Of a DNA stretch of 6,458 bases, positions 3,077 to 6,458 are shown piece after piece. Below the pieces are notes generated by a model. It was not told the origin of the DNA, ran no database searches, and worked only from the letters and a program-made list of their open reading frames with translations. Source of the DNA: DASVDK01 sp036562265 [NCBI: Thermodesulfobacteriota bacterium] (GTDB taxonomy: Bacteria > DASVDK01); the NCBI GenBank assembly GCA_036562265.1, contig DATCKS010000187.1, positions 1-6,458 on the forward strand. Direction: 5' to 3'. Made by a program: the position numbers and the translations under genes. Each line of letters begins with the position of its first letter. The first letter of the stretch is position 1.

Positions 3077-3106
3077 ATACTGAGGACCTCCTTGCGCGGC
3101 TGTCAA
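3077..3106 (-). promoter_or_regulatory. Candidate promoter of the lipoprotein gene
   Basis: On the minus strand a perfect -35 hexamer TTGACA (3106-3101) is followed after 18 nt by the weak -10-like CAGTAT (3082-3077, 3 of 6 matches to consensus). Transcription would start near 3070, giving a leader of about 70 nt before the ATG at 2997. The -35 is convincing and the -10 is poor. Confidence 0.45.
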
Positions 3107-3127
3107 GGCCGGCCGCTCCCCGCCGCC

Positions 3128-3136
3128 TGATACAAT
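3128..3136 (+). promoter_or_regulatory. rnk promoter, extended -10
   Basis: TGATACAAT fits the extended -10 pattern TGnTATAAT with one mismatch. No good -35 hexamer lies 16-19 nt upstream (the position reads GC-rich), which the TGn extension commonly compensates for. Predicted start is near 3143, leaving about 29 nt of leader that contains the ribosome binding site of rnk. Confidence 0.6.
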
Positions 3137-3171: not shown

Positions 3172-3588
3172 ATGACCGCGACCCCCGACATCGTGATCAC
3201 CGACCGCGACAAGGAGCGGCTCGTCCACGTCGTGGAGGCGTGGATGGATCGGCCCCCGTTCGCGGAGACGGTCGATTTCCTCGACGCGGAGCTGGCCCGC
3301 GCGGAGGTCGTCCCCTCCGAGACGATCGCGCCCACGGTGGCGACCATGAACTCCCGGGTCGAGTACGAGGACGCGGTCACGGGACAGCGGCGGTGCGTCA
3401 CGATCGCCTACCCCGACCAGGCCGGCGGCGCCGATCGGGTCTCCGTCCTGAGCCCGGTCGGTGCGGCGCTCCTCGGTCTGTCCGAGGGTCAGGAGATCGC
3501 CTGGCAGACGTCCGACGGCCGGGCGCGGCGGATCCGGCTCCTCAAGGTGCACTTCCAGCCGGAGGCGGCGGGGCAGTACGACCTCTAG
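3172..3588 (+). CDS. rnk: Rnk, regulator of nucleoside diphosphate kinase (GreA/GreB-like)
   Basis: Rnk-type protein of 138 residues, matching the usual length of about 136. Family members share the GreA/GreB fold, a short N-terminal coiled coil and a C-terminal FKBP-like domain, and bind RNA polymerase near the secondary channel; E. coli Rnk was named for its effect on nucleoside diphosphate kinase levels. Here the helical part is about residues 8-48 (ITDRDKERL, FLDAELARAEVV). The C-terminal domain starts at TMNSRVEYED (58-67) and carries the family hallmarks SVLSPVGAALLGLSEGQ (91-107) and FQPEAAGQYDL (128-138). The start has a strong ribosome binding site and a promoter. The Crp/Fnr gene follows after 25 nt, so the two are probably one transcript. 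With the NO-related neighbours this suggests a role in tuning transcription under nitrosative or oxygen-limited conditions, which is inference from context only. Confidence 0.93.
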   Translation: MTATPDIVITDRDKERLVHVVEAWMDRPPFAETVDFLDAELARAEVVPSETIAPTVATMNSRVEYEDAVTGQRRCVTIAYPDQAGGADRVSVLSPVGAALLGLSEGQEIAWQTSDGRARRIRLLKVHFQPEAAGQYDL

Positions 3589-3613: not shown

Positions 3614-4297
3614 ATGCCACGGGAGCCGGAGCCGCGCCCGCCCGACGAGGCCGCGGCGGTCACCTATCCACGGCTCGCCGCGTGGCTCGCCGGACGCCCG
3701 GCCGAGCCGCGCGCGAAGGGAGCCGTCCTCTTCCGCGACGGGGACCCGTACCGGGGAGCGATCTTCCTCGTCGAGGGGACGGTCACGCTCCGCAAGGCGT
3801 CCGCTCGCGGCCGGGCGCTGATCCTCGCGATCGAGTCGGCCGGCCGCCTCTTCGCCGAGGCGCCGCACCTGACCGGCGAGCGGACCTACGCCGTCACCGC
3901 GCACTGCGTCGAGCCCTCGCGGATCGTGCGCCTGTCTCCCGCCGACCTCGAGGCCGCGCTGCGCGATCCGGAGGTCGGCCGCGAGATCGTCGAGAACCTC
4001 GCCCGCAAGCTGCACCGGTTCCGGCAGTCGATCTTCGAGTTCACGCTCACCGACGCGCAGCGCCGCCTCCACCGCTTCCTCGAGACCCTGGCCCGCTCCG
4101 GGCAGCGCGGCGCGCCGCCGCCCCTGCCGGTCACGGTCACGCTCCCGGTCACCAAGCACGAACTGGCGGAGCTCATGGGGATCACCGCCGAGGCGCTCTC
4201 GCGCACCTTCGAGGCGCTCGAGGCGGCCGGCGTGGCGGAGCGGCTGCCCGGACGGGCGCTCCGCCTCCTGCGGTGGTCCGATCCGGAGATCGACTGA
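3614..4297 (+). CDS. Crp/Fnr-family transcriptional regulator, DNR/NNR/FixK-like
   Basis: A 227-residue activator-type regulator. Domains in order: cNMP-binding-like beta-roll sensor (about 30-108; FRDGDPYRGAIFLVEGTVTL, 40-59), long dimerisation helix (about 119-145) and winged helix-turn-helix (about 150-218; TKHELAELMGITAEALSRTF, 180-199). The recognition helix carries E193-x-x-S196-R197, the E-x-x-S-R pattern of FNR, DNR and FixK proteins that read TTGA half-sites; CRP has R-E-x-x-G-R and reads TGTGA. Only one cysteine is present (C98), so it lacks the FNR cysteine cluster for a [4Fe-4S] centre. A heme/NO-sensing DNR-like mode or no direct sensing is more likely (inference). The ATG at 3614 starts an Asp/Glu/Pro-rich extension (1-16). 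No ribosome binding site is visible 25 nt after rnk, so translation may be coupled or the leader atypical. A matching TTGAC-N4-GTCAA box lies 13 nt past its stop codon. Confidence 0.93.
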   Translation: MPREPEPRPPDEAAAVTYPRLAAWLAGRPAEPRAKGAVLFRDGDPYRGAIFLVEGTVTLRKASARGRALILAIESAGRLFAEAPHLTGERTYAVTAHCVEPSRIVRLSPADLEAALRDPEVGREIVENLARKLHRFRQSIFEFTLTDAQRRLHRFLETLARSGQRGAPPPLPVTVTLPVTKHELAELMGITAEALSRTFEALEAAGVAERLPGRALRLLRWSDPEID

Positions 4298-4310
4298 CGT
4301 GCCGGCTCGC

Positions 4311-4326
4311 CTTGACCTGCGTCAAG
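4311..4326 (+). promoter_or_regulatory. Crp/Fnr-type (FNR/DNR/FixK) operator, perfect dyad
   Basis: CTTGACCTGCGTCAAG has perfect 6-bp arms (CTTGAC / GTCAAG) around a 4-bp centre. It fits the TTGA(C/T)-N4-(A/G)TCAA consensus recognised by FNR, DNR/NNR and FixK. The centre is between 4318 and 4319. The gene directly upstream encodes a regulator with the matching E-x-x-S-R recognition helix. With a start at 4360, as predicted from the -10 box, the centre falls at -41.5, the class II activating position where the regulator overlaps and replaces the -35 element. Confidence 0.85.
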
Positions 4327-4347
4327 ACGCACCCGGGCCGCGCCGGC

Positions 4348-4353
4348 TACAGT
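4348..4353 (+). promoter_or_regulatory. -10 box of the CopD-like gene (class II activated promoter)
   Basis: TACAGT matches TATAAT at 4 of 6 positions and ends 7 nt before the ATG at 4361. Setting its first base as -12 gives a start at 4360, one base before the ATG, so the transcript would be essentially leaderless. No -35 hexamer stands at 16-19 nt; TTGACC at 4312-4317 is 30 nt away and belongs to the operator. This fits an activator-dependent promoter. Confidence 0.65.
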
Positions 4354-4360
4354 AGGCCCG

Positions 4361-4867
4361 ATGCGAACCGTCTACCTGCTCGCCGTCTGGCTCCACATCC
4401 TCGCCGTCGTCGTCTGGCTCGGCGGGATGGCGTTCCTCGTCCTCGTCTTCGTCCCGATCGTCCGCAAGCCCGAGCTTCGGGCGCAGGCGCCGGCGCTCTT
4501 CCACCTCCTCGGGACGCGGTTCCGTCCCGTCGGGTGGGCCTGCCTGATCACGCTCCTCGTGACCGGGACCATCCAGCTCGGCTACCGGGGCTACGGGTGG
4601 GAGGACCTCTGGACCGGCCGGCTCTTCGCCGGACCGCTCGGACACGCGCTGGCGCTCAAGCTCGCCATCGTGGCGGTCATCCTCGTCCTCTCGGCGGTGC
4701 ACGACTTCGTCGTCGGCCCGCGAGCCACCGTCGCCGCCCTCCCCGGCGCGTCTGCCGAGGCGCGCGAGCGGCTCAGGCGCCAGGCGAGCCGACTCGGGCG
4801 GACGACCTTCGTCCTCGCCCTCGTGGCGACGGCGCTCGGCGTCGTGCTCGTGCGCGGGCTCCCCTGA
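4361..4867 (+). CDS. CopD/HemJ-like four-helix membrane protein
   Basis: A 168-residue integral membrane protein with four predicted helices at about 5-31, 57-76, 95-118 and 147-165. Helix 1 carries WLHILAVVVWLGGMAF (10-25) and helix 3 ends with AVHDFVVGP (112-120). Histidines H12, H95 and H114 and lysine K100 lie in or at the ends of helices, as in the CopD family (copper resistance/uptake) and the related heme-binding HemJ fold; heme or copper binding is therefore plausible but not shown. No signal peptide separate from helix 1. The ATG at 4361 directly follows a Crp/Fnr-type promoter and has no Shine-Dalgarno. It converges on norD with 10 nt between stops. Its position under an FNR/DNR-type box beside norD suggests a part in NO, heme or copper handling for the reductase (inference). 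Confidence 0.8.
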   Translation: MRTVYLLAVWLHILAVVVWLGGMAFLVLVFVPIVRKPELRAQAPALFHLLGTRFRPVGWACLITLLVTGTIQLGYRGYGWEDLWTGRLFAGPLGHALALKLAIVAVILVLSAVHDFVVGPRATVAALPGASAEARERLRRQASRLGRTTFVLALVATALGVVLVRGLP

Positions 4868-4877
4868 GACCGGCGCG

Positions 4878-6458
4878 TCAGCGTTCGAGGAGGCGGCGGA
4901 CCAGCTCCACCAGGACGTCCGGGAGCCGCTCGGGACGCAGCAGGCGCGCGTACGACGCCCGGCCGAAGACCCGCGGCAGGTACGCCGGCGCCTCGCGGTC
5001 GATCGTCAGGCAGAAGGGCCTGATCCCCTGGAGCTGCGCCTCGACGACCGCCTGCCGCGTGTCCTCCACGCCGTAGCGCCCTTCGTAGAGGTCGACGTCG
5101 TTCGGCCTGCCGTCCGAGAGGAGGAGGAGCAGGCGGTGTCGGGCGCGCTCGCGGCCGAGCAGCGCCGTCGCGTGGCGGATGGCGGCGCCGACCCGGGTGC
5201 AGCGGTCCGGCTCGAGCGCCGCGATCCGCCGGCGGACCGCGGCGCCGTAGGGCTCGTCGAAGCCCTTCGCCGTGGCGAGCGTGACGCGGCCCGGTCCCTC
5301 GCCCGAGAAGCTCAGGATCGCGTAGCGGTCGCCGAGCGCGTCGAGCGCCTCGGCGGTCACGAGGAGCGCCTCCTTCTCGACGTCGATGACGCGCCGCGCC
5401 CCGGACACCCAGGCGTCGGTCGACGCGCTCACGTCGACCAGAAGGACGATCGACACGTCGCGGCGGGCCGGCCGGACGGCGGCGTAGAGGCGCTCGTCGA
5501 GCGCGCGGCCGGCGGCGCGATCGGCGAACGCCGCGACGCAGGCGTCGAGGTCGACCTCGGGGCCGTCGGGCTGCCGGCCGAGGCGGACGCGCCGCGCCCG
5601 AAGCCGCTCGAAGCGGCGCCGCACCCGCTCGACGAGCAGCGCCTGCCGGGCGAGGACCCCCTCGGCCCAGGCCAGGTCCCCTTCCGGCGCCGCGACGTCG
5701 CGGACGACCGCCCCCGGGATCCGGTAGACGCCGGTACGGCAGTCCCACTCCGGGTAGACGATGCCGGCCGCGAGCGGCCGGCCGTCGGGGGCGGTCCGCC
5801 GGGACGGCGGCTCCTCGGCGAGGAGCACCTCGTCCGGCCGGCCGGGCGTCCGGACCACCGGCGCCTCCTCGAGTTCGGAGAGCGAGTCGGCGAACCCCTC
5901 GGGATCGGCCTTCTCGTCCCGGTCGAGCGGCCGCTGGAGACCCCGCGGATCCTCGACGCTCTCGCTCGGGTCGTCCCAGGGGAGCACCCACATGCCGGGC
6001 CGGTCGTCCGGCTCGTCCTCGCCCGGCGTGCGCGGCTCGGGCCGCCGGCGAAGCCGCGCGGTTCGCTGCCGCCCCGGCCTCGCCTCGTCGCTCGCCCCCG
6101 GCCACGCGCCGATCGCGGCGCTCGCGTCGGCGGGGCGAGTCGTCACCCCCCACGGCTCGACCACCGCCACGCCGCGGTAGCCGCCCGCCGGCGGGAGGTC
6201 GCGGGCGACCGCCGTCGCCCAGCGGAGGGACGCCTCCGGCGTCGGGCCCGCGGCAAGGGGCGGCGGCGGGTCGGCCGGGCCGCTCTCGAGCGCCGCCCTG
6301 ACGAGCCGCTCGACCGCCCGCTCGGACGGCGTCAGGCCCTCGATCGGCGGGCGGCCGGCCAGCGCCGCGCGCCGCAGGGCGACGAGGTCGGGCAGGAGAC
6401 CCGGCAGCCCGACCGCGAGCCAGCGATCGATCGCAACCCCTTCGGCGAGGAGGTAGAG
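4878..6458 (-). CDS. norD: Nitric oxide reductase activation protein NorD (VWA domain), N-terminus cut by window edge
   Basis: NorD, with the MoxR-type AAA+ ATPase NorQ, is needed to make active nitric oxide reductase (NorBC), probably by helping insert non-heme iron; cytoplasmic. The frame is open from the right edge to the stop at 4878, giving 526 residues; whole NorD proteins are usually 600 or more, so roughly 100 N-terminal residues are missing. The ATG at 6170 is internal: upstream codons continue a NorD-like helical region (LYLLAEGVAIDRWLAVGLPG at the very edge; YRGVAVVEPWG before a poorly conserved stretch). An acidic linker spans about 146-226. The VWA domain (about 333-526) has an intact MIDAS: D342-x-S344-x-S346, T421 and D449. 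NorD hallmarks include WVSGARRVIDVEKEALL, GFDEPYGAAVRRRIAALEP, TRVGAAIRHATALL and SDGRPNDVDLYEGRYGVEDT. norQ/norB-type genes would be expected beyond the right edge. Confidence 0.93.
   Translation of the reverse strand, partial: LYLLAEGVAIDRWLAVGLPGLLPDLVALRRAALAGRPPIEGLTPSERAVERLVRAALESGPADPPPPLAAGPTPEASLRWATAVARDLPPAGGYRGVAVVEPWGVTTRPADASAAIGAWPGASDEARPGRQRTARLRRRPEPRTPGEDEPDDRPGMWVLPWDDPSESVEDPRGLQRPLDRDEKADPEGFADSLSELEEAPVVRTPGRPDEVLLAEEPPSRRTAPDGRPLAAGIVYPEWDCRTGVYRIPGAVVRDVAAPEGDLAWAEGVLARQALLVERVRRRFERLRARRVRLGRQPDGPEVDLDACVAAFADRAAGRALDERLYAAVRPARRDVSIVLLVDVSASTDAWVSGARRVIDVEKEALLVTAEALDALGDRYAILSFSGEGPGRVTLATAKGFDEPYGAAVRRRIAALEPDRCTRVGAAIRHATALLGRERARHRLLLLLSDGRPNDVDLYEGRYGVEDTRQAVVEAQLQGIRPFCLTIDREAPAYLPRVFGRASYARLLRPERLPDVLVELVRRLLER

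Follow-up and report, generated by a model that had tools for sequence, protein, structure and literature searches.

A likely class II Crp/Fnr promoter with a predicted near-leaderless start in front of a CopD-like gene

How is a CopD-like membrane protein gene expressed when only 63 bp separate its ATG at 4361 from the end, at 4297, of the Crp/Fnr-family regulator gene before it, and when that gap holds an inverted repeat and a −10-like hexamer? The question arises in a 6,458-nt stretch of DNA from a bacterium assigned to the Thermodesulfobacteriota (DASVDK01 sp036562265), which we analysed whole and call the window. Our reading, to which we give a probability of roughly 0.7, is that the gap carries a class II Crp/Fnr promoter, at which a DNR-like activator would produce a leaderless or nearly leaderless CopD-like message, with nitric oxide (NO) as the likely signal. 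The features concerned are collected in Table 1.

Table 1. Promoter elements and genes discussed in the text (window coordinates).
Feature	Position	Strand	Basis or remark
Operator dyad CTTGAC-N4-GTCAAG, full sequence CTTGACCTGCGTCAAG	4311-4326, centre 4318.5	.	Sequence reading, motif scan
−10 hexamer TACAGT	4348-4353	+	First base 29.5 bp from dyad centre
Predicted transcription start	4360..4361	+	0-1 nt upstream of start codon; inferred from geometry
rnk-like gene (GreA/GreB C-terminal domain)	3172..3588	+	Pfam GreA_GreB, Rnk_N; SD AGGAGG
Crp/Fnr-family regulator gene, DNR-like	3614..4297	+	Pfam cNMP_binding, HTH_Crp_2
CopD-like membrane protein gene, regulated gene	4361..4867	+	Pfam CopD 37.9 bits vs cut-off 32.1
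NorD-like VWA protein gene (nitric oxide reductase accessory)	4878..6458	−	Convergent with CopD-like gene; 5' part beyond window

The dyad is of the Crp/Fnr type, has no mismatches and begins 13 bp after the regulator gene ends. It is the sole zero-mismatch dyad in the window, where a scan allowing up to three mismatches gave six matches against 1.53 expected. From the first T of TACAGT to the A of the start codon is 13 bp. If position 4348 is taken as −12, then +1 falls on the G at 4360, the dyad centre falls at −41.5 and the ATG starts at +2. A preliminary description had listed this dyad, hexamer and ATG with their spacings, all of which we recovered at those positions, including the 29.5 bp from dyad centre to −10. 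It had also counted three independent spacings; only two are independent, as the third is their sum. TACAGT matches TATAAT at four of six positions, and the best −35 candidate at a spacing of 16-18 bp, AAGACG, matches at three of six by eye. The promoter scan listed no sigma-70-type site at the CopD-like promoter, which bears out the earlier view that no −35 hexamer competes.

Dyad symmetry by itself says little, because perfect 6+4+6 inverted repeats of any sequence were common in simulations (6.4 per simulated window); the window has a G+C content of 74.5%. The particular sequence and its position are more telling. Dyads of the form TTGAY-N4-RTCAA occurred in none of 400 simulated windows, and a −10-like hexamer falls at one fixed place with a probability of about 0.0011. 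Across 1.0 Mb of 74 other loci, TTGAY-N4-RTCAA gave four oriented matches, equal to two sites, neither with a −10 in register. The exact 12-base dyad was absent from 13 other whole genomes (about 57 Mb), in which the reversed-dyad control gave eight forward matches.

The case for a class II promoter is carried mainly by comparison with relatives. We counted dyads with at most one mismatch to TGTGAC-N4-GTCACA or CTTGAC-N4-GTCAAG in the window plus 73 CopD-like loci, which are the 74 loci described below minus L122, a near copy of L116 dropped before the count. A hexamer with the A...T pattern (−11/−7) lay exactly 29.5 bp away, in either orientation, at 9 of 13 sites. The expected number was 0.60, and no shuffle among 5000 reached nine; with the window itself removed, 8 of 12 sites remained in register. 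Looser dyads had no such excess (2 of 49 sites at two mismatches, 25 of 550 at three).

A second set came from seven whole genomes, which contained 46 Crp-type dyads against 11 for the reversed control, so that part of the 46 must be chance matches. Among the 37 dyads unused before, 14 had the hexamer at 29.5 bp, where 2.29 were expected and no shuffle of 5000 matched the count. Two of the 37 are homologous mrp promoters, and two more are dyads that lie close together in L177. At the remaining offsets between 20.5 and 41.5 bp there were zero to six sites each. The second set is the cleaner of the two, since our attention was drawn to the TGTGAC consensus and the 29.5-bp register by L097 and L118, both of which belong to the first 13 sites. 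Together these counts give strong support to 4311-4361 as a predicted class II Crp/Fnr promoter, as the preliminary description had proposed.

In the mechanism that we propose, the DNR-like protein encoded at 3614-4297 would most likely be the one to bind the TTGAC-N4-GTCAA dyad at −41.5. Once bound, it would stand in for the −35 element and allow RNA polymerase to engage TACAGT. Transcription would then begin at the ATG or one base upstream, and the message, leaderless or nearly so, would be translated without a proper Shine-Dalgarno site. NO would be the likely signal, and protection or repair beside the NO reductase the likely role of the product. If this is right, the locus is a compact case in which the position of an activator is by itself enough to determine where transcription starts and how the message is translated.

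The regulator has the recognition helix AEALSR, which is of the FNR-like E..SR type, and matched none of the NCBIfam family models at cut-off. Its closest solved structure is the DNR protein 3dkw, presumably from Pseudomonas aeruginosa (E 1.3e-14, residues 30-219 aligned), but at 57.7 bits the relationship is distant, and heme or NO binding by the regulator is putative. Close relatives were sought in three groups. None was found in Chloroflexi (201 genomes; best E 1.3e-19, 33% identity) or in Pseudomonadota, where 3 of 299 genomes matched at 32-33% identity, and none of 235 Myxococcota genomes matched at E 1e-18. FNR senses oxygen through a 4Fe-4S cluster held by four ligand cysteines. The regulator has one cysteine, which rules against FNR-type sensing and makes the oxygen half of the earlier suggestion, that the gene responds to NO or oxygen, a weak one.

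The NO half fared better. It is supported by the DNR-like regulator, by the NorD-like neighbour and by the genes found under the relatives' dyads, and we consider NO, from these sequence comparisons, the more likely signal at the CopD-like promoter. Over 527 aligned positions, the NorD-like product has 50% identity with a VWA protein of Aquabacterium olei, whose gene adjoins genes for a c-type cytochrome, an oxidase subunit I and a NorQ-family protein and lies near norR. RIC and NnrS are NO-stress proteins. Among the relatives' in-register sites, L133 has a RIC gene (NCBIfam 240.1 against a cut-off of 204.7), L089 an NnrS gene, L105 an FeS-assembly gene upstream of the CopD-like gene, and L097 a ParA/Mrp-type gene. 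CopD-like genes are themselves in register in L097, L118 and L136, and L116 is off at 30.5 bp. In L136 the order is that of the window: regulator, dyad, CopD-like gene. The class II register is seen again at the Crp-type dyad of a cobalamin-independent methionine synthase gene in L118 (3887-6268, minus strand). By eye, the second set adds RIC (L189), a Crp-family gene (L181) and a heme-copper oxidase-like gene (L158); several in-register sites have no callable gene. A nitric-oxide regulon is likely, because RIC, NnrS, iron-sulfur assembly and CopD-like genes all occur at such sites. In Gemmatimonadota, the comparison yields a small, likely NO-responsive Crp regulon that includes the CopD-like membrane protein.

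Could another Crp/Fnr regulator, for example an oxygen-sensing one of the FNR type, be the main activator at a real class II promoter? TTGAY dyads are common to FNR and DNR proteins. According to the available part of a study of Dinoroseobacter shibae, Dnr and Anr boxes cannot be told apart, and Fnr and Dnr share sites in that organism (PMC5398030). Against this stand the mere 13 bp between the regulator gene and the dyad, and the fit of helix type to half-site in those loci that have a regulator gene alongside. Adjacent regulators with an RE..(S/A)R helix (L089, L097, L105 and L136) accompany TGTGAC or near-TGTGAC dyads, and the window's AE..SR regulator goes with TTGAC, although the window alone represents the TTGAC side. 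CRP and FNR of E. coli, with these two helix types, read TGTGA and TTGAT, respectively. On balance we regard a different main activator as improbable, if the strongest of the alternatives to control by the adjacent DNR-like protein.

The available part of the Dinoroseobacter study also gives the nearest published parallel for the promoter, in that nosR2 and hemA3 have a TTAAC-N4-GTCAA box 41.5 bp from their starts (PMC5398030). The box type and the 41.5-bp position resemble those of the window, and the Dinoroseobacter genes under FnrL/Dnr are denitrification genes. Unlike those promoters, as far as the source describes them, the window's predicted start sits at the ATG.

This brings us to the start of the CopD-like gene. 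Its only Shine-Dalgarno candidate is AGG at a spacing of 4 nt, which counts as no Shine-Dalgarno site. There is no alternative in-frame start between the last stop codon and the ATG at 4361, and five of eight CopD-like homologues (45-51% identity, with common residues that include His12 and VHDFVVGP) have ATG at the aligned first residue. The product also passes Pfam DUF4149; as a name, the copper_CopD equivalog (NCBIfam NF033808) was rejected, at 39.2 bits against a cut-off of 195. From the promoter geometry and these start-codon data, a near-leaderless start appears likely.

The relatives' promoters are of a different kind in this respect. In the 13 with a readable gene start, a count that leaves out in-register sites without a clear start, the predicted leader was 17-74 nt in 11 and zero in two. 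At CopD-like genes it was 68 nt (L097), 45 nt (L116) and 49 nt (L118), and these lengths indicate that the pairing of class II activation with leaderless translation is not conserved with the CopD-like gene. A leaderless start conserved across the CopD-like family was likewise rejected, as a hexamer with at least four of six matches was in place at only 4 of 74 loci. The near-leaderless start put forward in the preliminary description stands on the window's own geometry, its lack of another in-frame start and the homologues' ATG, and does not extend to the other CopD-like leaders.

Both zero-leader promoters among the 13 precede mrp-like genes. These two, from L166 and L169, have a dyad in common with each other and TAGC(C/G)T at 29.5 bp; the ATG is exactly +1 and an in-frame stop lies 12 nt upstream of it. 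The L166 protein scored 259.8 against the ApbC model, under its cut-off of 348, and L169 encodes a close homologue. We searched 191 genomes of that Gemmatimonadota order for the zero-leader layout with a GTCACA half-site, a pattern blind to the window's own variant. It occurred in three genomes, two of them near copies, each time at the mrp-like gene (L166 1401-2559, L169 258-1416, and L194); the reversed control gave no match. The mrp-like promoter (L166/L192, L169/L193, L194) resembles that of the window in its Crp-type dyad and a TANNNT at 29.5 bp. It differs in its TGAGAC...GTCACA half-sites, in its Fe-S carrier-like gene and in a leader of 0 rather than 1 nt, and the organisms are distant. 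Class II activation and a zero leader thus also go together outside the window, but seldom, and at another gene.

Within the window, the start of pdxH (873-887) has TACAAT beginning 12 bp before the ATG and no Shine-Dalgarno site; TTGCCG, a −35-like sequence, lies 18 bp upstream. When pdxH was used to look for close relatives, 8 of 11 genomes gave a match, none above 54% identity. With a register of 12 bp at pdxH against 13 bp at the CopD-like gene, and no Shine-Dalgarno site, near-leaderless starts are probably no rarity in this genome, a suggestion drawn from two genes only. The available part of a published survey gives a TANNNT signal, some 12 bp upstream of the start codon, as the mark of leaderless genes, found in Actinobacteria, Deinococcus-Thermus, Acidobacteria, delta-Proteobacteria and others. 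Among genomes with such genes, their mean share is, for example, 13.3% in Acidobacteria and 15.8% in delta-Proteobacteria (PMC3160421). The window's TACAGT, 13 bp before the ATG, resembles these TA-led genes; the survey, in the part available, sorts start-codon-proximal signals, not activator sites (PMC3160421).

The preliminary description had called the pairing of class II activation with leaderless translation unusual. It is indeed rare, but the near-identical register at pdxH and the mrp-like gene of three Gemmatimonadota genomes qualify the statement: the pairing is uncommon, not unprecedented in kind. Further examples are likely in M. tuberculosis and Bradyrhizobium, given the clustering of CRP sites and the leaderless starts there. 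The source for the former, as available, places M. tuberculosis CRP sites in a cluster at −60 to −40, and the title of its reference 36 refers to an extensive leaderless transcriptome (PMC4117774); for Bradyrhizobium, the available text counts 320 starts that lie no more than 10 nt from a start codon (PMC4842269). Among the matches listed in a search of titles and abstract openings in the open-licence literature, no paper announced a pairing of leaderless starts with class II, FNR, Crp or FixK regulation, which does not prove novelty. A broader proposal would be that, in NO and iron-sulfur stress regulons, class II activation and leaderless translation have come together on two or more independent occasions, at the CopD-like gene and at the Gemmatimonadota mrp-like gene, so that one activator aligns the start site with the start codon and protein can be made under stress without leader-dependent initiation. 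We offer this tentatively and think it rather improbable.

The arrangement of the genes also permits a second alternative. Since the CopD-like gene follows the regulator gene on the same strand after 63 bp, read-through into it is possible, and the gene might be expressed mainly from the rnk-regulator unit, with weak translation independent of a Shine-Dalgarno site and with the dyad secondary or vestigial. A TACAAT box before rnk and the lack of any terminator-like site in a scan of the window agree with this. A read-through message would, however, offer the ribosome just the AGG at 4 nt, and the 29.5-bp register is far above chance in the window and its relatives; we therefore judge read-through as the main route to be still less probable than a different activator. 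The suggestion that the dyad is an RNA hairpin, a terminator or processing site whose spacing to TACAGT is accidental, can be set aside as extremely improbable: a perfect 6-bp repeat with a 4-base loop could pair, and such repeats are common by simulation, but predicted folding left the dyad stem unused and was no better than that of shuffles (z of −0.06 for 4305-4345 and −0.75 for 4298-4375), and the scan found no terminator-like site.

We return to the preferred reading, activation at a class II promoter by the DNR-like protein, and to the family of the gene that it would control. A scan of genome contigs found 15 relatives; the best nine, which come from several phyla, showed identities of 44-52%. 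Two scans of viral contigs found none. Of these first relatives, L005 has RIC, L002 NnrS and L004 hemerythrin. Searches for the CopD-like family, run at differing E limits, matched 44 of 249 Gemmatimonadota genomes, 1 of 299 Pseudomonadota genomes (G001 itself) and, in further searches, 20 of 235 and 10 of 251 genomes. The resulting 74 CopD-like loci, many shortened by contig ends, comprise 20 from Myxococcota, 10 from Chloroflexi and 44 from Gemmatimonadota.

In Myxococcota, NnrS lies within about 8 kb of the CopD-like gene in 8 of 20 loci and RIC/ScdA-type genes are nearby in 3 of 20; Crp-family genes are near it in 7 of 20 Myxococcota, 1 of 10 Chloroflexi and 3 of 44 Gemmatimonadota loci, all counts made without a background control and with query names first assigned by eye. 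Later checks of the neighbours' names agreed for NnrS, hemerythrin and RIC. Of the neighbours looked for, not one was present in 36 of 44 Gemmatimonadota, 8 of 10 Chloroflexi and 6 of 20 Myxococcota loci, and NorB-, NorC-, NorQ- and NorD-type queries matched at none of the 74. In L006, COX1-family and c-type cytochrome genes are divergent from the CopD-like gene, with matches to COX1 and cytochrome c models only. A TGTGAC-type dyad lies within 250 bp upstream at only 5 of 74 loci, two of these being near copies. Across loci, then, the NO link of the CopD-like family is patchy. The Myxococcota neighbourhoods, with NnrS or RIC nearby, nevertheless make a part for the CopD-like protein in NO defence testable.

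Six Myxococcota loci (L076, L077, L078, L079, L080 and L081) have ATGAY-N4-RTCAT-like dyads, and in each an NnrS or Crp-family gene is within reach of the CopD-like gene. These dyads are perhaps the operator of the regulators with a VETAIR helix found in L076-L081.

Upstream in the window, the rnk-like product passed NCBIfam PRK05753 (130.2 against a cut-off of 109), and its gene is perhaps the first of a unit that carries the regulator. The regulator's ATG has no Shine-Dalgarno site and lies 25 bp downstream of rnk; translational coupling may be needed. The Shine-Dalgarno-led rnk gene and the regulator gene may use one promoter, with TACAAT at 3131-3136. By eye, this box is preceded by CTTGCGCGGCTGTCAAG (3091-3136 region), a degenerate inverted repeat that is not in class II register.
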